Shown: positions 4,454-60,704 of the stretch, piece by piece | Numbering within the stretch: the stretch's first letter is position 1 | Layout of the letters: every line of letters begins with the position of its first letter | From: Sphingobacteriia bacterium RIFOXYC2_FULL_35_18 | GTDB taxonomy: Bacteria > Bacteroidota > Bacteroidia > Chitinophagales > Chitinophagaceae | Assembly (NCBI GenBank): GCA_001829005.1 | Contig: MIAG01000001.1 | Location: 248,001-312,000, forward strand | Reading direction: 5' to 3' | DNA: 64,000 bases | Translations under genes and position numbers: made by a program | Notes under the pieces: generated by a model | Databases searched by the model: none | What the model saw: the letters and a program-made list of their open reading frames with translations, nothing else | Told to the model about the DNA's origin: nothing

Positions 4454-7400
4454 TTAATGGTTAGTATATTGATCAATTATTTGTAGAAAAGCAGGGACAT
4501 CAAAAGGCTTGGTTAAGTATTGCTTAACGCCAGCTTCCAATAATTTATTTACCTGAGCAGGCATAGCATCTGCACTTACTACTATCACAGGAATTTGCCT
4601 AGCTATTTCATTTAGCTTCAATATTTCAAATACTTCAGATCCATGTATATCGGGAAGGTTTAAATCTAATAAAATAACATTAGGCTTATGTTCGAGTGCA
4701 AGCTCTAAAGTTTGTTTACCATACACTGTAGTTACTAATTTTATCTTTGGGCGCTTTGCTAATAAAATTTGGGTCACTAATTCAATATTTGAACTGTTGT
4801 CTTCAATATATAATACTACTGCCTCTTCGATGGTCTTTTCTTTAAGCGCTACTTGCTCTAATTGAGCATGAACATTCAGGGCTTCAACAATAGAGTTTGT
4901 TCTAGGAAGTTCTACCCAGAATGTGCTTCCTTCATTTAACTTACTCTCTACACCACAAGTACCTCCCATTAAAGTAGCATATTGCTGAACTACCGATAAC
5001 CCCAATCCTGTTCCCTCAACTGCACTATTTTCTGCTCCTAATCTTTCAAATGGGGTAAATAGTTTTTTAACATTATTGGCATCAATTCCCGGACCATTGT
5101 CTGATACACAAATACGAATAATGGTTTTATTATCTCTTAAAACTTCGGTTGCGAATAATTTTACCCAACCCCTTTTATCGTGGTATTTTATAGCATTATT
5201 TAATAAATTAAGTAAGACTTGTTTAATCCTTTGTTTATCTGCCGAAATAAAAATTTCTGCTTTATCTTCAAGTTCATTAATCAATTTTACCCCATATGCA
5301 TCAGCCGTTGGAGTTAAAGTTTCGAATACATCTCTAAATACATTATTTAGTTTTACCGCTTCTACAGATATAGAAATTTTACCTGCTTCAATTCTAGATA
5401 TTTCAAGCACTTCATTAATTAGGTTCAATAAGTGTTTTCCACTGTTTAAAATATGATGTACTGCTTTTTCTTGCTTGGCATCTAAAGTTCCCATCTCTAA
5501 CAATTGAGCAAATCCTAGAATTGCATTCATAGGAGTTCTAAGTTCATGACTCATTCTAGATAAGAACTCACTTTTGGCATGATTGGCTTCTTCTGCTTCA
5601 ATTTTTGCTTTTGTTAAGTCTGCATTACTGTTTTGCAATTCGATGGTCCTTTCTACAATTTTCTTTTCTAGATTGGTGTTGAGTTGCTTAATCTCATGTT
5701 CAATTTTAATTCGCTCTGTAATATCTTCCTTAATAGCAATGAAACTAGTAATTGTACCAACTTCGTTAATTATGGGTGTAATTGTAGTGGATTCCCAATA
5801 CAATGAACCATTTTTTCTTCTATTATTTAACACCCCCCTCCATACTTTACCATTAGTGATTGTACTCCAAAGCTCGTCATACACTTTAGGATTGGTAAAG
5901 CCCGATTTCAAAATTCTTGGATTCTGTCCAATCAACTCCTCTTGTTGATAGCCTGTTGTAGTTATCGTAAATGGATTTACGTATTCAATATTTCCATCTA
6001 GATCAGTAATGAAAATACTGATTGGACTCTGTTCAACCGCACTACTCAATTTACTAATCAGCTCCTTTGCTTCCCTTTGTGCAGTAATATCTCTCCAAGT
6101 AGTAAGAAGAAACTTTTCATCTAGTGTGTCAATTGCAGAGAGTTTAATATCTATGTAAACAGGAGTTCCATCTGGCTTTAAATGAACCCACTCAAACTGT
6201 GTCGTTTTATTAGCAAAAGCTGCAGCTACTACTTCTTGTACCAACTCATCGGATTTGCGACCATTTGGTTGGTATTCAGGAGAAATATCTTTCGGTTCTT
6301 TACCAATAATATAGTCTCTAGTAGTTCCTAGAATAAATTCGCTTGCTTTATTGCAATCAACAAAAATTCCATCTTTTACAATTAAATACCCATCAGGGGA
6401 ATCTGCAAAAAGAGTTCTATATTTTAATTCACTTTGTAATACCCGTTCTTCTGCTAATTTTTGCTCAGTGATATTCGTTGCATTAACAAATACAGCATAA
6501 ACTTTACCTTCTGAATCTTTAACAGGTTGTATACTACTTCTGAACCAAACCTGGTGCCCATTAATTAATCTAGTGGATTCTTTAATGATACCATTCCTAC
6601 TAAAAAATACTTGTTCTACATCAGCCATATTTTGGCTAGCAATCTCAGGAGTTGCTAAATCATAAATAGTGAAATCTTCTTCTAAAAACTCAGCAGGTGT
6701 TTTCCCGTATATTTTAGCTGCAATTTCATTTACAAATAAAAACTTCCCATTTACATCTAACATAATTATAGCAGCATCAGAGCTTTCTATCAAACTACGG
6801 TAAATCTCTTTGCTTTCAAATAATGCTTCTTCTGCTAACTTACGTTCAGTAATATCTAAATTAGTTCCCCTAGTTCCTAAAAAAACACCTTGCTCATTGA
6901 ATATGGGTTGGCATACATGTTCAATAATTCTAGTTTCATTATTTCGATTGATAATTCTGAAACTAACTTTTTCTGATTTCTTTTCTTCAACAACATTATT
7001 TCTATGCTCAATATATTTAGTAAGGTCGTCTGGGTGAATTAGTTTTTGGGTAATTGCTGAATCAGTTAGAAGTTCATCTGCCGAATACCCAGTTATACGT
7101 TCACAAGATGGAGAGTGATAAATAAAATACCCATCCGGTGCTTCCCAAAATTCCCAGTTATAGGTATTATTAGCAATAATTCTAAATTTTTCTTCAGAGG
7201 CTATAATATCCCGCTTTGTTATTTTGATTTGTTTGTACTTTTCTATTATACCAACAATGGTATTAATCATTACCATTTCCTCATTAAGAAAATCTAAAGA
7301 TCCTGGTATATATATTTTAATGCACCCTTGATTTTGGGTAGAAACATGAATATTAAATTCTCGAAAATTTTCTGTGACTTTAAATTGATTTGAAAAATAA

Positions 7401-8941
7401 TCAATTCCATTATATACTATATGAACATATGTTTGAACAGTATCCTGAAAACCAGCTACAATAATATTAGCTATCTCTTTAAAATATTCTTCTGGTGTTA
7501 ATTCTTCATTTTGACTTAAAGTAGATACTGCATAAACTGCTTTTTGTTCTTTCAATCGCTCACCTAAATCATATCGTGATTTTCTTAATTCGTCATCTGC
7601 TTTTTTTCGAGTAGTTGCATCACGAGTTGTAGCAATATACCCTTTCAAAATTCCATCTTCTGAAAAATGAGGTTTTATATCGGTAATAAACCAAGCTTTG
7701 CTTCCATCTTTTTTAAAGGAATCACCCTCAATCGTCCATGTTTTATTTGCACTAATTAATCCATCAAGTCTATTTTGGTTTATCTCGGCTAAAAGGCTTT
7801 CAATTTTTTGAATTGTTTCTCTTGGATAAATTTTATCATAACTAAGTTCAAGATATTCTACTGATGAGTAGCCAAATATTTTTATAATGGATGCGCTACA
7901 AAAAGTAATATTAAAGTCTAAGTCCATGGTCCATACCATATCAGACATATTCTCTGTAATTTCTTTATATTTTATCTCACTCTCTTTTATTCTCAGCTCA
8001 TTTGAAATTCGGTTTTTTACATTCACCAATAACTCAGCAAAAATTCCTAAGAGGTCTTGTTCAACAGTAGTAAAATAGTGTGGCTGATTAACAGACTCTA
8101 ATCCTATTACACCAATGCAATCGTTACCATCCATTAATGGTATTGCCAATAAGCTGATTACTTTTCCAGCATCTAATAAATTACGAATTGGGCTATTAAT
8201 TTCTAATTGATCTGAATTGGGGATGTTAATTGGATTTCCTTTTTGTAAGATTTCAATCCAAGATGCAAATTCATTCAATGGAATTTTTGCCAATTCCTCT
8301 TTTTTTGATTCAATTCCATGGGCACACCATTCATGTGTGTAATAAGCAAAACCATTTTCATAATCATACTCGAAAATGGCCAATCTATCGGCTTTGGCAA
8401 ATTCACCCAACTCTTTAATGGCAATATTAATTTCACTATTTAAATGATCTAATGGAATATTAATAAAGCGCTGAGAAATAGTTGATATTAAATGCAGCAG
8501 CTTATTGCGCTGTCTTAGCTTTGATTCTAATTCAATTTGATCTGTAATATCTGTAAATGTTGTAAATACTCGATAAGGCTCTGTTTCTCCTTCTTTAAAT
8601 TCAGGAACTGCATTTATTAAAATCCATACATATTTATTTTTAACAGCCTGTTTCACACCCATTACAACATTAAAAACCGGCTTTCCCGTTCTTAATGCAA
8701 CTATAGCTGGGTGCTCATCACCCGGAAAAATTGAAAAATCAGGCTTTATGGTAGCCCACTGTTCATCACCCGATGCTACTCCAATAATTTGATCTTGTGA
8801 TAATCCTAAAAGATCTATAGCAGCTGGATTTGCTTCCTCAATTTTACCTTCTTTGTTCAGATAAATAACACCTTGAGCAACATTCTCGAAAAGCAAGATG
8901 AAATCCTGTTCAATATCTGTTCTATTGTCACTTTTACTCAT
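4454..8941 (-). CDS. Large hybrid sensor histidine kinase with six PAS and two GAF(-like) domains
   Basis: A 1495-residue cytosolic-type hybrid kinase. Visible order: PAS about 12-135, GAF about 150-315, PAS about 325-450, a degenerate GAF-like region about 460-580, four PAS domains to about 1085, coiled coil, HisKA with H-box SHELRTP (His 1132), HATPase (DNGPGID, GTGLGLS), receiver with Asp 1426 in LLDLNLPD. No membrane segment. The GAF domain and last PAS closely resemble those of the kinase at 1-2961, and the first PAS resembles that of 9020-10945, so the three genes look like shuffled paralogues. It lies 78 bases downstream of 9020-10945 on the same strand; a hairpin covers its start codon. 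Signal unknown. Confidence 0.93.
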   Translation of the reverse strand: MSKSDNRTDIEQDFILLFENVAQGVIYLNKEGKIEEANPAAIDLLGLSQDQIIGVASGDEQWATIKPDFSIFPGDEHPAIVALRTGKPVFNVVMGVKQAVKNKYVWILINAVPEFKEGETEPYRVFTTFTDITDQIELESKLRQRNKLLHLISTISQRFINIPLDHLNSEINIAIKELGEFAKADRLAIFEYDYENGFAYYTHEWCAHGIESKKEELAKIPLNEFASWIEILQKGNPINIPNSDQLEINSPIRNLLDAGKVISLLAIPLMDGNDCIGVIGLESVNQPHYFTTVEQDLLGIFAELLVNVKNRISNELRIKESEIKYKEITENMSDMVWTMDLDFNITFCSASIIKIFGYSSVEYLELSYDKIYPRETIQKIESLLAEINQNRLDGLISANKTWTIEGDSFKKDGSKAWFITDIKPHFSEDGILKGYIATTRDATTRKKADDELRKSRYDLGERLKEQKAVYAVSTLSQNEELTPEEYFKEIANIIVAGFQDTVQTYVHIVYNGIDYFSNQFKVTENFREFNIHVSTQNQGCIKIYIPGSLDFLNEEMVMINTIVGIIEKYKQIKITKRDIIASEEKFRIIANNTYNWEFWEAPDGYFIYHSPSCERITGYSADELLTDSAITQKLIHPDDLTKYIEHRNNVVEEKKSEKVSFRIINRNNETRIIEHVCQPIFNEQGVFLGTRGTNLDITERKLAEEALFESKEIYRSLIESSDAAIIMLDVNGKFLFVNEIAAKIYGKTPAEFLEEDFTIYDLATPEIASQNMADVEQVFFSRNGIIKESTRLINGHQVWFRSSIQPVKDSEGKVYAVFVNATNITEQKLAEERVLQSELKYRTLFADSPDGYLIVKDGIFVDCNKASEFILGTTRDYIIGKEPKDISPEYQPNGRKSDELVQEVVAAAFANKTTQFEWVHLKPDGTPVYIDIKLSAIDTLDEKFLLTTWRDITAQREAKELISKLSSAVEQSPISIFITDLDGNIEYVNPFTITTTGYQQEELIGQNPRILKSGFTNPKVYDELWSTITNGKVWRGVLNNRRKNGSLYWESTTITPIINEVGTITSFIAIKEDITERIKIEHEIKQLNTNLEKKIVERTIELQNSNADLTKAKIEAEEANHAKSEFLSRMSHELRTPMNAILGFAQLLEMGTLDAKQEKAVHHILNSGKHLLNLINEVLEISRIEAGKISISVEAVKLNNVFRDVFETLTPTADAYGVKLINELEDKAEIFISADKQRIKQVLLNLLNNAIKYHDKRGWVKLFATEVLRDNKTIIRICVSDNGPGIDANNVKKLFTPFERLGAENSAVEGTGLGLSVVQQYATLMGGTCGVESKLNEGSTFWVELPRTNSIVEALNVHAQLEQVALKEKTIEEAVVLYIEDNSSNIELVTQILLAKRPKIKLVTTVYGKQTLELALEHKPNVILLDLNLPDIHGSEVFEILKLNEIARQIPVIVVSADAMPAQVNKLLEAGVKQYLTKPFDVPAFLQIIDQYTNH

Positions 8942-38273: not shown

Positions 38274-39428
38274 TTATTTTAAAACAATATTTTCATATAA
38301 GCTATTTACCGTTTTTTTAAGTACTGCATTATATCCATCTATATATTTTTGTTCACTTCCATTGATGATTACAACAAATCCATATTGTTTATTGGGTTCA
38401 AAAAATAGAGCACTATTTAATCCATAAGCAGATCCGGTATGTCCTGTTAAAGTAACTCCGTTGATTAATTTATTCGATTTAGAAAGGGCTAAACCATATT
38501 GTTCTTTCTCGGAAATCATTGTTTGCATTTTCCTCGCACTTTTTTTAGAAATAATTCTTTTGCCATTGGCTTTACCCATTCTACTGTGCATAATCATATA
38601 TTTTGCCAGATCAGTAGCAGAAATTTTCATGCCGCCTGTAGGAGAAAAAATAGGTGTAGTATAACCCATGGTATAGTTGGCAATCTCTTCACTTCTTGGT
38701 GCATAAGCATTGGGAGATGCAATAAACTTGGCTGAATCTGCATGATACTCATAAATAGTAGCAAACCTATTTTTATCTAAAGAGTCTACACAATACCCTC
38801 CATATAAACCTAAGGGTTGCAGAATATGCTTACTTATATAGTTATCAAACCTTTCGCTAGAAATTTTCTCAATAATGGTGCCTACCATATTGTAATTTAA
38901 ATTACAATACATATAACCCGAATCTGGTGCATAATTATTATAGCAATTAGCCCAGTTTGGATTTTTAGAAGGATTAATAGCATCTAAGCTGAAATAGCCC
39001 TGACTATCATTTATAGAAGACCGATGCGATAAAACCATTTTAAGTGTGATGGGTGTCTCTGGAAATTTTGGGTTTCGAATGATGAAACCTACTAATTTAC
39101 TCATATCATCATCTAACGATATCAATCTTTTTTCAACCAACTGCATAATAGCAGTAGCAGAAAAAGATTTTGAAATAGATGCAATTCTAAAAATATCCAA
39201 ATTGCTTAATGATGTTTGCGTTTCTTGATTCTTTAAACCAAATGATTGTGCATACACAATTTGGTTTTTTTTTACTACCGCAACTGACATTCCAATCACT
39301 TTATGGCTATTCATGATTGCATTAAGCGAAGAGTCTGCCGATGAATACTGTCCTTTCAACATGAATGGAAGTATCAAAAGCAGACTCGCTATAAATAAAT
39401 TGTAATTGATTTTGTGCATTTTCCCCAT
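38274..39428 (-). CDS. Secreted class C beta-lactamase-like serine hydrolase
   Basis: 384 residues with signal peptide (YNLFIASLLLILPFMLKGQ). Penicillin-binding fold motifs: SxxK in IASISKSFSATAIMQ (nucleophile Ser), YxN in MYCNLNYNMVG, and HTG in TLTGHTGSAYG in place of KTG. This is the beta-lactamase/D-aminopeptidase/esterase group; HTG is common among esterase-like members, so true beta-lactam hydrolysis is not assured. Periplasmic. An ATG three codons in is an alternative start. Confidence 0.88.
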   Translation of the reverse strand: MGKMHKINYNLFIASLLLILPFMLKGQYSSADSSLNAIMNSHKVIGMSVAVVKKNQIVYAQSFGLKNQETQTSLSNLDIFRIASISKSFSATAIMQLVEKRLISLDDDMSKLVGFIIRNPKFPETPITLKMVLSHRSSINDSQGYFSLDAINPSKNPNWANCYNNYAPDSGYMYCNLNYNMVGTIIEKISSERFDNYISKHILQPLGLYGGYCVDSLDKNRFATIYEYHADSAKFIASPNAYAPRSEEIANYTMGYTTPIFSPTGGMKISATDLAKYMIMHSRMGKANGKRIISKKSARKMQTMISEKEQYGLALSKSNKLINGVTLTGHTGSAYGLNSALFFEPNKQYGFVVIINGSEQKYIDGYNAVLKKTVNSLYENIVLK

Positions 39429-39453: not shown

Positions 39454-40170
39454 TTAAGGGTTGGTAGACCAAATAGAACTGTCTTTTACAAATACCCTTC
39501 TGTTTAATTTTAACTGTGCTATAATTAATTCTGCAAAATCTTCGGGATGCATCAATCGCTCTTCGTTATTATTGATCAGATTTGCTGATATTGCTAGGTC
39601 GGTCACTACAGTGCTTGGTACCATGGCCGTTACTCGGATATTGTATTTGCGCACTTCTTGCATTAAAGACTCTGTTAATCCCATTACCCCAAACTTAGAG
39701 GCACTGTATGCACTGGTTGTTGCCGCCCCTTTTAAACCTGCAGTAGAAGAAATGTTTACAATATCTCCAGTTAAGCGCTTCATCATATTTGGTAACACCG
39801 CTCTAGTGGTATAGTACACACCAAATAAATTTACTCTCACTTGCTGTTCCCAAACTTCAGGTGATAAATCTAAAAACTTACCAAAAGTACCTGTACCTGC
39901 ATTATTAATTAAAATATCTATGGGGCCTAATGTATTTTCTATTTTTTCCACCGCCCAGTTCACTGCGTTAATATTGCTAATATCAGCTGGTGCAATGATA
40001 GATAGAACACCCAGCGAATTAATTTCTGCCGCCACTTCAAGAAGATCTTTTTCAGTGCGAGCTATTAAGCCAATATTGACACCTTCTTTGGCTAATGCAA
40101 TAGCAATGGCCTTTCCTATTCCTTTTCCTGCTCCTGTTACCAGAGCTACTTTATCTTTTAATGATTCCAT
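39454..40170 (-). CDS. Short-chain dehydrogenase/reductase
   Basis: 238 residues from the ATG at 40170 ([20 protein letters not shown]); the longer ORF would run into the upstream OYE gene and adds a non-family leader. NAD(P) motif [12 protein letters not shown] in [10 protein letters not shown], catalytic Ser in NISSTAG and YSASK. Sequence style is FabG/3-oxoacyl reductase-like. It lies 10 bases after the Old Yellow Enzyme gene and belongs to its operon, suggesting successive C=C and C=O reduction of the same substrates (inference). Confidence 0.9.
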
Positions 40171-40180
40171 TGTATATAAA

Positions 40181-41278
40181 TTATTTTGCTGAATAAAACG
40201 GGTAATCAGTATATCCTTTTTCACCAGGCGTATAAAATGTTTGCTGATCCACATCATTTAATGATGCATCCAATTGATACCTATTCACTAAATCTGGATT
40301 AGCAATAAATGGAACGCCAAATGCTACTAAATCGGCTTCGCCGGCTTCAATTACCTTTGTAGCTGTTTCTTTATTAAAGCCTCTGTTGATGATTAATGTT
40401 CCCTTGTAAATAGGTCTATAATGCTTAGCGATTTCTTTAACTGCAAACGGTAAATGATCTACGGGAACAAAAGGTTCCGTTAAATGCAAGTAAGCCAAAC
40501 CATACTCGTTCAATTTATTTACGATGTAATCATGTGTAGGTATAGTGGTTTCGTCCATAGTGATTCCAAACAATCCATTCAAGCTTGGACTTAAGCGTAA
40601 ACCAACTTTACTGTAATCAATCACGCCATTGAAGGCATCTAAAATCTCAAATAATATTCTTGCACGATTTTCAATTGTTCCACCAAATTCATCGGTACGT
40701 TGGTTGGATGTAGCGTTAAAAAATTGTTGCAATAAATAACCATTAGCGCCATGAATTTCAACACCATCAAAACCAGCTTTGATTGCATTAGCTGCTGCAT
40801 TTTTAAAGTCTTGTACTGTTTGTTTAATATCCGCAATAGTCATTTCCTTAGGAGTTACTGTATCGGTAAAACCATTTTTAGTGTACGACTTTTCATTAGG
40901 ATTGATGGCAGATGGTGCAAGTGGTAAAGCGCCATTGTGGAAATCGGGATGAGACATTCTTCCCACATGCCATAATTGAATAAATATTTTTCCTCCCTTT
41001 TCGTGCACTGCCTGAGTGATTAATTTCCATCCTTCTACTTGTTCATCAGTATAAATTCCTGGCACATTAATGTACCCTACTCCAACACTACTTACTGGAG
41101 CACCTTCTGTAACAATTAAACCTGCTGTAGCTCTTTGAGCATAATAAGTAGCCATTAACTGATTGGGAACTCCACCTGCATTGTCGGCCCTACTTCTTGT
41201 CATAGGAGCCATCACCATTTTGTTTGTTAATTCCAAACCTGCCATTTGATATGGCGTAAATAATACTGAACTATTCAT
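40181..41278 (-). CDS. Old Yellow Enzyme-family alkene reductase (NemA-like)
   Basis: FMN-dependent ene-reductase, 365 residues, the standard length. Visible: [49 protein letters not shown] with the substrate-binding His and Asn pair (HGAN), NQRTDEFGG, and [15 protein letters not shown] near the end. Uses NAD(P)H to reduce activated alkenes, quinones or nitro compounds. Middle gene of a three-gene operon (Rossmann protein upstream by 9 bases, SDR downstream). The operon promoter carries an FNR-type palindrome. Confidence 0.94.
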
Positions 41279-41287
41279 ATTGATATT

Positions 41288-41773
41288 TTATATAAGTGAC
41301 TTTTTAAAAATGGGTTTTAGTCCACATAAATGAACAATCTCTCCAGTTATAGATAAGGATACTTCATCATTCCCCTCTACAATTGCTGCAGTATTTGCCC
41401 ACTCTACCGAAACAAATTTTGAATACGGTAATAATGGCTGAATAGAGACCGAGTCAGCTGATGCATACCTAATTTGAATCACGGTTTTACATGTAGTTAC
41501 TTCATTTATTTTTGAAGCTATGGAAGCCTGATCTGCCGAAGCTTCGGCTGCAATAATTATTGTATCTGCCTCCCAAGAGGCATCTTTACTACAGGCAATC
41601 AATTCCACCTGTGCAGAAGGGTGTGTTGTTAAAATATGTTGTTTTAGCAGGGTCAAATTTTCGGTGCTGCCATCCATTAACAGTAAAGGATAATTGCCAC
41701 CAATTTGATTGGCCAACATTTGACCAATTGCTGAATTGGCGCCCAATATAGCTACTGTGTTATTGTATTGCAT
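41288..41773 (-). CDS. Rossmann-fold NAD(P)-binding-like protein
   Basis: 161 residues from ATG 41773. A longer ORF begins at 41794 but would overlap the -7 element at 41792-41799, so the shorter start is chosen. The N-terminus TVAILGANSAIGQMLANQIG is a dinucleotide-binding motif; strands ELIACSKDASWEADTIIIAA and TVIQIRYASAD follow. Too short for a full dehydrogenase and without a recognisable catalytic domain. First gene of the OYE operon. Function unknown; a redox or scaffold partner is possible. Confidence 0.7.
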   Translation of the reverse strand: MQYNNTVAILGANSAIGQMLANQIGGNYPLLLMDGSTENLTLLKQHILTTHPSAQVELIACSKDASWEADTIIIAAEASADQASIASKINEVTTCKTVIQIRYASADSVSIQPLLPYSKFVSVEWANTAAIVEGNDEVSLSITGEIVHLCGLKPIFKKSLI

Positions 41774-41791: not shown

Positions 41792-41799
41792 CAAAACTA
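41792..41799 (-). promoter_or_regulatory. -7 element of the OYE operon
   Basis: TAGTTTTG on the minus strand, a perfect TAnnTTTG, 18 bases before ATG 41773. No -33 TTG at usual spacing, which fits activation from the palindrome about 65 bases upstream of the start site. Confidence 0.6.
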
Positions 41800-41841
41800 A
41801 TTGAATAGGAAAGGCTAGGTCTTGAGAAAGGTTAAGAAATC

Positions 41842-41861
41842 AACTTGATTTAAATCAAGTT
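41842..41861. promoter_or_regulatory. Perfect FNR/CRP-type palindrome
   Basis: AACTTGATTTAAATCAAGTT, 20 bases, fully symmetric, containing TTGAT-N4-ATCAA. It overlaps the stop codon of the Crp/Fnr gene and lies upstream of the OYE operon promoter at about -65. A T-run does not follow on either strand, so a terminator is unlikely. Confidence 0.72.
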
Positions 41862-42445
41862 TTAGAACTGCCTTTTGCTAATTTTTTCTTTATTCTACTG
41901 AGTGTTTCTGGTGTAATACCTAAATAAGAAGCCACTAATTGCTGTGGTATTCTTTTTATCAATGCTGGATTTGTTGCGGATAAATGTAAAAATTTCTCCT
42001 CTGCTGAATTAGTAATTGAACTTATTAACCTTCTTTCTTTAGATATAATATTATTTTGAAAAAGTATTCTAAAATACCTTTCCATCACTGGCACTTTCAA
42101 TAACATTTTTTCAAAATCTGTTTGACTAATTAGCAATAATTCTGCTTCTTCAATAGCATCAATATGATAAGTAGAAGGTTCATCCGACAAAAAACTCAGC
42201 ATATCAGCCATCCACCAGCCTTCCCAGGCAAAATGAATCATATGTTCAACTCCCTTTTCATCAACATTATATGAGCGCAAGAGTCCTTTTTCTACAAATG
42301 CCAAATGCCTACAAATATTTCCTTCCTGAAGCAAGTACTGTTTCTTTCTGATTTTCTTGGGTGAAAAAAATGTTTTAACAAGCTTTTGCTCTGCTTCGGA
42401 AAGCAACACTTTATCTTTAACTTGAGAGAAGAATACTTCGAACAT
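41855..42445 (-). CDS. Crp/Fnr-family transcriptional regulator
   Basis: 196 residues. An N-terminal cyclic-nucleotide-binding-like barrel (YLLQEGNICRHLAFVEKGLL, WEGWWMADMLSFLSDEPS) and a C-terminal winged helix IPQQLVASYLGITPETLSRIKK. The recognition helix E-T-x-S-R is the same arrangement as in E. coli FNR (ETISR), which reads TTGAT, and a TTGAT-N4-ATCAA palindrome sits at the gene's own end. The N-terminal Cys cluster of FNR is missing, so it should not sense oxygen through an FeS cluster. Probable activator of the OYE/SDR operon (inference). Confidence 0.9.
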   Translation of the reverse strand: MFEVFFSQVKDKVLLSEAEQKLVKTFFSPKKIRKKQYLLQEGNICRHLAFVEKGLLRSYNVDEKGVEHMIHFAWEGWWMADMLSFLSDEPSTYHIDAIEEAELLLISQTDFEKMLLKVPVMERYFRILFQNNIISKERRLISSITNSAEEKFLHLSATNPALIKRIPQQLVASYLGITPETLSRIKKKLAKGSSKT

Positions 42446-42450
42446 TAATG

Positions 42451-42458
42451 CAAAATTA
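42451..42458 (-). promoter_or_regulatory. -7 element of the Crp/Fnr gene
   Basis: TAATTTTG on the minus strand, 5 bases before the ATG at 42445. Transcription would start almost at the start codon, giving a nearly leaderless message. Confidence 0.5.
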
Positions 42459-45125: not shown

Positions 45126-45223
45126 ATTCTTTTATATAAAAATCTTTTGTTGATTAGTATCAATTTAATAATTGGCTGAAATTGCACAGCAGTGCATCAA
45201 ACAATAAAAAAAGATATATATAC

Positions 45224-60047: not shown

Positions 60048-60704
60048 ATGAGCAAGAGAGTACTGGTATATCTAGGTTTCTTTTTGGTTTTATTGGGTGC
60101 ATTTTATTTTTTCCTTTTTAGAGGAACCGATAAATGGAAAAGAAAGCTTTCCGTAATTAGCTACGTAAAGCCTTTTCAGTTCACCACTCAAGAAGGGCTG
60201 CCATTTAATGATAGGGATTTATTGGGCAAAGTAACGGTAGTAGAGTATTTTTTTACCAGCTGCAAAGGAATCTGCCCCAAAATGAACAATAATATGAAGG
60301 GGATTTATGAAACCTTCAAGTCAGAGCCCGATTTCATGATATTAGCACATACCTGTGATCCAGAAACAGATTCTGTTCCAAGATTAAAACATTACTCAGA
60401 CTCACTAAAGATAGACAGCAGAAAATGGGTGATGGTAACAGGTAGAAAAGACAGTCTTTATCAGATTGCACGTAGTGCCTATTTATTAGATGACCCCAAA
60501 AACAGTGTAGATAAAATTGAGGACCAATTTATTCATACCCAATTTTTTGCTTTGGTAGATCGGGATGGAAAAGTTCGCTCTCAAATTTATGATGGGCTTA
60601 AAAAAGACGAGATAGAAAAACTTAAATTAGACATTCAGGAATTGCTTAAAGAAAGATCGGCCAATAGCAATTTTGTAAATGGAATTTTTAATAACAATCC
60701 ATAG
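60048..60704 (+). CDS. SCO1/SenC-family copper chaperone-like protein
   Basis: 218 residues. One N-terminal anchor helix (VLVYLGFFLVLLGAFYFFLF), then a thioredoxin fold facing the periplasm: FTTQEGLPFNDRDLLGKVTV, VEYFFTSCKGICPKM with the CxxxC copper site, LAHTCDPETDSVPRLKHYSD, and the conserved His in FIHTQFFALVDRDG. SCO proteins deliver copper to cytochrome oxidase or act as thiol reductases. Eight bases separate it from the Fur-family gene, an unusual partner that suggests metal-controlled expression (inference). Confidence 0.92.
   Translation: MSKRVLVYLGFFLVLLGAFYFFLFRGTDKWKRKLSVISYVKPFQFTTQEGLPFNDRDLLGKVTVVEYFFTSCKGICPKMNNNMKGIYETFKSEPDFMILAHTCDPETDSVPRLKHYSDSLKIDSRKWVMVTGRKDSLYQIARSAYLLDDPKNSVDKIEDQFIHTQFFALVDRDGKVRSQIYDGLKKDEIEKLKLDIQELLKERSANSNFVNGIFNNNP

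Follow-up and report, generated by a model that had tools for sequence, protein, structure and literature searches.

The recognition helix of FNR is of the E-x-x-S-R type, and class II promoters for CRP and FNR in E. coli carry a regulator site centered at −41.5 in place of a proper −35 element. Quinone regulons of the Firmicutes are governed by the MarR/DUF24-type repressors MhqR and YodB, with targets that include an MhqO-type dioxygenase, DoxX, a phospholipase/carboxylesterase, and a nitroreductase. In E. coli, NemR is a TetR-family repressor and NemA an N-ethylmaleimide reductase of the old yellow enzyme (OYE) family. MhqR, NemR, and YodB are all repressors released by electrophiles, and most known quinone sensors are repressors. 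To our knowledge, the Crp/Fnr paralogs of Bacteroidota, several of which occur per genome, are mostly without known function. Crp/Fnr regulators described from this phylum include P. gingivalis PgRsp and HcpR, presented as stress-response regulators (PMC6955866; PMC1274295); PgRsp is reported to bind haem, and HcpR2 to have the motif GTAACnnnnGTTAC and hcp targets. For DNR, which is NO-responsive, a motif like the FNR box, TTGATnnnnATCAA, is reported (PMC1274295).

Here, we analyzed a Bacteroidota genome whose nearest named relatives are Sediminibacterium (Chitinophagaceae). In the window, by which we mean the whole 64-kb stretch of DNA analyzed, a gene for a Crp/Fnr-family protein, designated REG below, is followed downstream by an operon in the order Rossmann protein, OYE, and short-chain dehydrogenase/reductase (SDR), all on the minus strand. 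We propose, with a probability of about 0.75, that REG would be an FeS-free Crp/Fnr-type activator of quinone/electrophile detoxification in Bacteroidota. Common to REG, FNR, and DNR are the Crp/Fnr fold, an E-x-x-S-R-type helix, and a TTGAT-N4-ATCAA site (predicted in the case of REG; for DNR, a motif like the FNR box). REG stands apart in lacking FeS cysteines, in its tandem sites 23 bp apart, in its targets, and in its small size (190–196 aa). The predicted promoter geometry shares the −41.5 site with the class II promoters of E. coli, but adds the Bacteroidota −7 element TAnnTTTG, a second dimer site 23 bp upstream, and occasionally a third. As with NemR and NemA, an OYE-family reductase lies under a local regulator, though a Crp/Fnr protein rather than a TetR-family repressor. 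The content of the MhqR/YodB regulon (dioxygenase, DoxX, esterase, and nitroreductase) is matched in two relatives, L092 and L093, whereas the window operon has OYE and SDR; REG is unrelated to the MarR/DUF24 proteins and is most likely an activator. Like PgRsp and HcpR, REG is a Crp/Fnr protein of Bacteroidota with a putative stress role, but the available parts of those descriptions report no tandem FNR boxes for either.

Our literature search returned nothing on this regulator or motif; it partly missed the slash spelling "Crp/Fnr" and does not establish absence from print. The general kind of promoter is known, and we did not meet its specific tandem layout in descriptions, a point we do not press as a firm claim.

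The −7 element TAnnTTTG lies at −12 to −5 in a start-site map of Flavobacterium psychrophilum (PMC9723704), and the positions called predicted in the following list use that register. The features, in order of coordinates, are:

38274..39428, minus strand: beta-lactamase-fold (PF00144) protein, noted from synteny
39454..40170, minus strand: SDR oxidoreductase, 238 aa, start placed by ortholog comparison
40181..41278, minus strand: OYE/N-ethylmaleimide-reductase-like ene-reductase, from PF00724 and PDB ene-reductases
41288..41773, minus strand: stand-alone NAD(P)-binding Rossmann protein, 161 aa, first gene of the operon and a recurrent partner, from AlphaFold and structure comparison
41792..41799, minus strand: −7 element TAGTTTTG (TAnnTTTG), 22 nt after box 2, predicted +1 at about 41787
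41822..41835, minus strand: box 2, TTAACCTTTCTCAA, weaker, 23 bp center to center from box 1, predicted center at about −41.5
41845..41858, minus strand: box 1, TTGATTTAAATCAA (TTGAT-N4-ATCAA), predicted center at about −64.5, kept in relatives, within an extended palindrome at 41842–41861
41855..42445, minus strand: REG, Crp/Fnr-family regulator, 196 aa, with an ETLSR recognition helix and a single cysteine, Cys45
42451..42458, minus strand: TAATTTTG, candidate −7 element of REG's own promoter, ending five bases ahead of the REG start codon (42446–42458)

REG belongs to the Crp/Fnr superfamily, with a beta-roll and a Crp helix-turn-helix. It matches PF00027 with 50 bits (cut-off, 27.5) and HTH_Crp_2 with 22.6 bits, under the cut-off of 27; its AlphaFold model (pLDDT 92) has a complete predicted Crp/Fnr fold that aligns over its whole length with the FNR structure (Z 20.9, rmsd 1.9, 188 residues). 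By the tests made, it is neither FNR nor CRP, scoring 24.4 bits against the NCBIfam Fnr model (cut-off, 228) and 21.3 bits against the CRP equivalog model PRK11753 (cut-off, 266). The initial annotation had read an FNR-like recognition helix without FeS cysteines, and both readings hold. The helix is E180-T-L-S-R184, an E-x-x-S-R helix as in FNR, and when the window's sequence is aligned with those of 46 relatives (47 in all), E180, T181, S183, and R184 never vary. REG contains one cysteine, Cys45, where the [4Fe-4S] oxygen sensor of FNR has four, and an FNR-type four-cysteine cluster is therefore impossible; the missing cysteines suggest that REG would act independently of oxygen.

The closest solved relative is a cyclic-nucleotide-binding regulatory protein of Cytophaga hutchinsonii (PDB 3DN7; E 1e-43; Z 24, rmsd 1.3 over 146 aligned residues), which has the same cysteine at the position of Cys45 but an E-x-L-S-E helix in place of ETLSR. 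Cys45 is present in 43 of the 46 relatives. We considered it as the sole sensor and rejected this, since it also occurs in 3DN7 and in 16 of 53 paralogs without an ETxSR helix, and since three regulators that lack it (L095, L125, and L126) keep the promoter, which argues against Cys45 as the only sensor. Because TAATTTTG lies five bases from the start codon, REG mRNA should be leaderless or nearly so. A similarly close −7 element is seen in four orthologs (L049–L052), and no exact box occurs within the 160 nt viewed near this candidate element.

The first operon gene has no Pfam match. Its structural model is closest to a mitoribosome component (Z 19.8), followed by dehydrogenases and imine reductases (Z about 18); we ascribe no enzymatic activity to it. 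Cys62, Trp68, and Lys97 are invariant across this protein and its homologs (24 aligned sequences, alignment A2; residues are numbered as in that alignment, whose first row has one extra residue at the start). With transcription predicted to start at about 41787, the gene must begin at the ATG at 41773 and not at the upstream TTG. The second gene is a member of the OYE family by its Oxidored_FMN domain (PF00724, 281 bits); against NF007899, it scores 338 bits, under the cut-off of 403. Beyond the SDR gene, the PF00144 protein is possibly the distal operon gene in Sediminibacterium.

The promoter between regulator and operon has the order box 1, 9 bp, box 2, 22 or 23 bp, and TAnnTTTG. The initial annotation had pointed to a perfect 20-base palindrome. 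This is exact (AACTTGATTTAAATCAAGTT, 41842–41861), and it overlaps the stop codon of REG, but conservation is confined to the 14-bp core, and the orthologs L050 and L051 differ in the three outer base pairs. The 64-kb window has two perfect 20-mer palindromes, at 41842 and 38889, where 100 shuffles average 0.23. It also has two exact TTGAT-N4-ATCAA sites, at 41845 and 45150, with a shuffle mean of 0.3 and at least two in 4 of 100 shuffles. The palindrome by itself is therefore only mildly surprising, and the case rests on comparison and conservation. The second palindrome, ATTGTAATTTAAATTACAAT (38889–38908), lies inside the beta-lactamase-like ORF. The second exact site (45150–45163) lies upstream of a fatty-acid desaturase gene; L049 and L050 do not have it ahead of their copy of this gene, and it has no TAnnTTTG at class II distance, so it is probably a chance occurrence.

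In the register of the start-site map, box 2 would be centered at −41.5 or −42.5 and box 1 at −64.5 or −65.5. The earlier placement of a box at about −65 stands on that register, but a single box had been seen. What is conserved is a pair with a spacing of 23 bp, its second member at a predicted −41.5, which has the look of a class II-type activated promoter rather than of a lone upstream site. Box 2 ends at the place where a −33 element would begin. The claim that the promoter lacks −33 extends beyond the window: a TTG near −33 is absent there and in 38 of the 41 relatives that carry the whole arrangement, with a TTG starting at −36 to −32 in the remaining three (L072, L089, and L102). On geometry, so far as the mapped register applies, 41 of 46 relatives would have the −41.5/−42.5 site of a class II Crp/Fnr-dependent promoter, a kind marked by a weak or absent −33/−35 element.

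We found this arrangement, hereafter the grammar, by aligning the sequence behind REG in orthologs and paralogs: box 1 (TTGAT-N4-ATCAA), 9 bp, a weaker box 2 (TTR-N8-YAA), 22 or 23 bp, and TAnnTTTG. Eighty named loci made up the set, reduced to 46 non-redundant relatives at 85% identity, which should not be counted as independent samples. In 41 of the 46, the two boxes stand 23 bp apart and TAnnTTTG follows 22 nt (17 loci) or 23 nt (24 loci) further on. Dinucleotide shuffles gave the grammar in 0–1 of 46 across 20 trials, and shifting the allowed gap off 22/23 left 0–4 of 46, so the gap is sharp. Pairs of good boxes number 27 at a spacing of 23 bp, at most 2 at any other spacing from 14 to 59 bp, and 0.1 in shuffles; at the same spacing of 23, there are 2 pairs in upstream sequence and 5 in regulator coding sequence. 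A looser tandem score (15/20) also gave 41 of 46 at 23 bp, but 10–15 of 46 at spacings of 16, 17, 19, 20, 21, 27, and 29, since a perfect box is enough to pass there when its partner matches in part; under the loose threshold of the shuffle and gap test, other box spacings likewise score in as many as 21 of 46. The counts relied on here are the stricter ones for pair spacing and whole grammar.

The five relatives without the full grammar are L084, L087, L088, L115, and L122. L088 has both boxes, and its −7 element is one base off (TAATTTGG). L084 keeps REG and OYE but has neither boxes nor Rossmann gene, and its OYE gene comes directly after the regulator. This locus is also the one exception in the comparison that the initial annotation had set in advance as its own test, namely whether the palindrome is found at orthologous regulator and OYE loci. 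The promoter is kept at 20 of 21 such loci (10 of 11 when made non-redundant at 85%), which bears out the proposed link to an ene-reductase operon. In those 20, the arms of box 1 are TTGAT/ATCAA in 16 and TTGAT/GTCAA in 4, and the N4 spacer takes 12 forms. The boxes lie downstream of REG in most relatives; in Pedobacter (L089 and L090), they lie upstream of REG and face a divergent gene, with the gap to its −7 element still 22 nt. Judged from these alignments, the grammar is kept while the surrounding sequence has changed. At two loci, L095 and L102, a third, perfect box is seen 23 bp further out, downstream of the regulator.

We then searched whole genomes with the promoter pattern, blind to genes, using the reversed pattern as a control. 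The genome sets overlap one another, and they overlap the named loci (G003:C48 and L084, G021:C9 and L078, and G011:C8 and L068, for example, are apparently the same contigs), so these sets are not independent. There were 8 sites in 60 genomes of relatives, 8 in 296 genomes of the phylum, and 28 in 298 genomes of the order, and a variant pattern gave 4 sites in 395 genomes of the class; after removal of duplicates, 41 distinct sites remained. The reversed pattern gave 0 matches in these searches. With three mismatches allowed in six genomes of the genus, only known places were returned, some in several readings or on both strands, and again 0 for the control. The strict pattern is present in 20 of the 298 genomes of the order. 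Since REG loci supplied the pattern and the majority of the genomes sampled contain no strict match, these counts should be read as a minimum, not as a census.

Forty sites were examined; the 41st, L230, was left out, as its locus overlaps L215, and only a short ORF of about 35 codons lies behind it. REG adjoins 27 of the 40. Behind the 13 sites away from REG, there is a 4,5-DOPA-dioxygenase-like gene in five cases, a Rossmann gene in three, and DoxX, SDR, and YceI genes in one each. Sites before the same kinds of gene with no REG nearby indicate that the promoter marks a gene set, not merely the vicinity of the regulator. Two of the 40 are unexplained by this gene set (L224, isochorismatase-like by eye, and L225, with nothing recognized). 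Among REG-adjacent sites, L147 and L150 have DsbA-like genes behind them, and L233 and L234 are followed by a gene that was not recognized in annotation. The tandem-box promoter at L233 (G780:C36), which has a more distant REG-like gene (163 bits), precedes what looks by eye like an OmpP1/FadL-like outer-membrane transporter.

Across genomes, the target families are OYE, PRISE, DoxX, YceI, pirin, nitroreductase, DsbA, LigB, and Rossmann/SDR, assigned through one representative per cluster, mostly for clusters of more than one copy. The PRISE enone reductase matches plant progesterone 5-beta-reductase (E 2e-77) and is kin to iridoid synthase. The targets also include an MhqO-type ring-cleaving dioxygenase (E 4e-82), a 4,5-DOPA-extradiol dioxygenase above its cut-off, and a phospholipase/carboxylesterase. 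In Ilyomonas (L092), DoxX, the MhqO-type dioxygenase, the esterase, and pirin are consecutive. In different genera, this one promoter is found before OYE or before PRISE, enone-reducing families that are unrelated to each other.

From these observations, we propose a mechanism. REG would be a one-component activator, probably made from its own promoter. The trigger would be a quinone, an enone, or a related electrophile, sensed via Cys45 or by binding in the degenerate cNMP pocket. Two REG dimers would occupy adjacent sites at about −41.5 and −64.5 (in the register of the start-site map), the strong outer box loading the weak inner one, and the inner dimer would replace the missing −33 contact and recruit RNA polymerase in class II-type activation. 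The products, which in the window would be the Rossmann protein, the OYE ene-reductase, and the SDR, would reduce, ring-open, or otherwise remove the compound.

Electrophile detoxification, raised in the initial annotation, remains the likely theme in view of a coherent gene set (OYE, PRISE, MhqO-type dioxygenase, and nitroreductase). The enzyme families suggest the detoxification role, with the caveat that OYE and SDR enzymes also serve other pathways. If REG is the regulator, a quinone or enone signal would be the most economical reading of the gene set, and we lean toward it. The same regulator and promoter might instead answer to NO, haem, a cyclic nucleotide, or a catabolic aromatic ligand, with enzymes that are catabolic rather than protective. 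We consider this unlikely, though likelier than the other alternatives. In its favor, Crp/Fnr relatives use many ligands, among them the NO of DNR, with its FNR-box-like motif, and the haem of the Bacteroidota protein PgRsp (both as cited above), and ring-cleaving dioxygenases and OYE can be catabolic. However, no nitrogen-oxide gene was recognized among the annotated target clusters (mostly the multi-copy ones), REG scores far under the cut-offs of the CRP and FNR models, and a mixture of OYE, PRISE, nitroreductase, DoxX, MhqO-type dioxygenase, and DsbA points to stress more than to one catabolic route.

Activation by REG is suggested by the geometry of its sites. A REG that sat on both boxes as a repressor and was released by electrophiles would resemble the known quinone sensors, most of which are repressors, and box 2 does overlap a region that RNA polymerase needs. 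We nevertheless hold repression to be distinctly improbable, as the −41.5/−64.5 positions relative to TAnnTTTG (again by the mapped register) are of the activator type, 38 of 41 promoters without a TTG near −33 are expected to be weak without help, and the −7 element is not covered by a site.

Activation would very probably be through REG itself. In a tree of 119 Crp/Fnr proteins, 48 of 51 grammar rows fall in one supported clade (99/94), which has 54 regulators; the three outside it are L008, L011, and L161, the last of which is A/T-rich and looks like chance. The genome of the window encodes seven PF00027 proteins. All four with an ETLSR helix have a box at or just past the 3′ end of their gene (three perfect, one 9/10), and the three with other helices have no perfect box, one of them showing an 8/10 match. 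Among distant paralogs, a box of at least 9/10 lies just downstream in 8 of 10 with an ETxSR helix versus 6 of 61 with other or unparsed helices. As many as 13 REG matches were found in one genome among the 60 searched. A second copy of REG in the window's genome (G000:C9; 47% identical) has an identical box 1 and lies ahead of genes for a DsbA-like protein and a DOPA dioxygenase. With four ETLSR regulators in the cell, two of them with the identical box TTGATTTAAATCAA, cross-talk is likely, and some tandem-box promoters have no adjacent regulator. It is nonetheless very unlikely that the boxes are used by another ETxSR regulator and not by the adjacent REG, since 41 of 46 relatives have them next to REG, whichever side of the gene they lie on.

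We reject the idea that the palindrome terminates transcription or forms an mRNA hairpin where the regulator gene ends. Its overlap with the stop codon and its capacity to fold (−6.9 kcal/mol) speak for that reading, but no T-run follows it, the 14-bp DNA core is kept in orthologs while the outer stem is not, its distance to the stop codon varies from overlap to about 240 nt beyond, the boxes lie upstream of the regulator in Pedobacter, and boxes of the same kind occur at promoters with no adjoining regulator gene.

The grammar is strict, is searchable without knowledge of the genes, and would assign targets to a whole clade of Crp/Fnr paralogs. It predicts a quinone/enone response in several Bacteroidota orders, a response for which our literature search showed no regulator, and it offers an explanation of how a Bacteroidota promoter dispenses with the −33 element. 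We also put forward, tentatively and at slightly less than even odds, a broader idea in which Bacteroidota would have a system of their own: an FeS-free FNR-like activator that directly senses quinones or enones and is functional only when two dimers, or sometimes three, are stacked with a 23-bp pitch, the promoter thereby counting dimers, with a regulon that has swapped non-homologous ene-reductases (OYE and the plant-like PRISE) and kept the switch. If this were true, the three-box promoters of L095 and L102 would have the look of a growing helical array of regulators.

Single TTGAT-N4-ATCAA sites were also considered as a genome-wide regulon and rejected. There are 33 such sites against 7 for reversed controls, yet on contig C1, ORFs contain 13 of the 15, and only two fits to an exact box with TAnnTTTG 18–30 nt further on occur in the window's genome. 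We take most of the exact single boxes in this genome to be noise.

Finally, we note some paralogs elsewhere in the same genome. Locus L047 (G000:C2:872000-886000) encodes two further ETLSR Crp/Fnr paralogs (7145–7720 and 2372–2920), and a single box marks the 3′ end of each; that of the first lies 22 nt before TAATTTTG, a single-box version of the class II arrangement. At L235 (G000:C13, near 60102–60359), a Crp/Fnr protein of 245 aa that has several cysteines in its N-terminal part and the helix T-E-S-C-I-R is a candidate FeS-type regulator, and ATGATTTATATCAT is found just past its stop codon.
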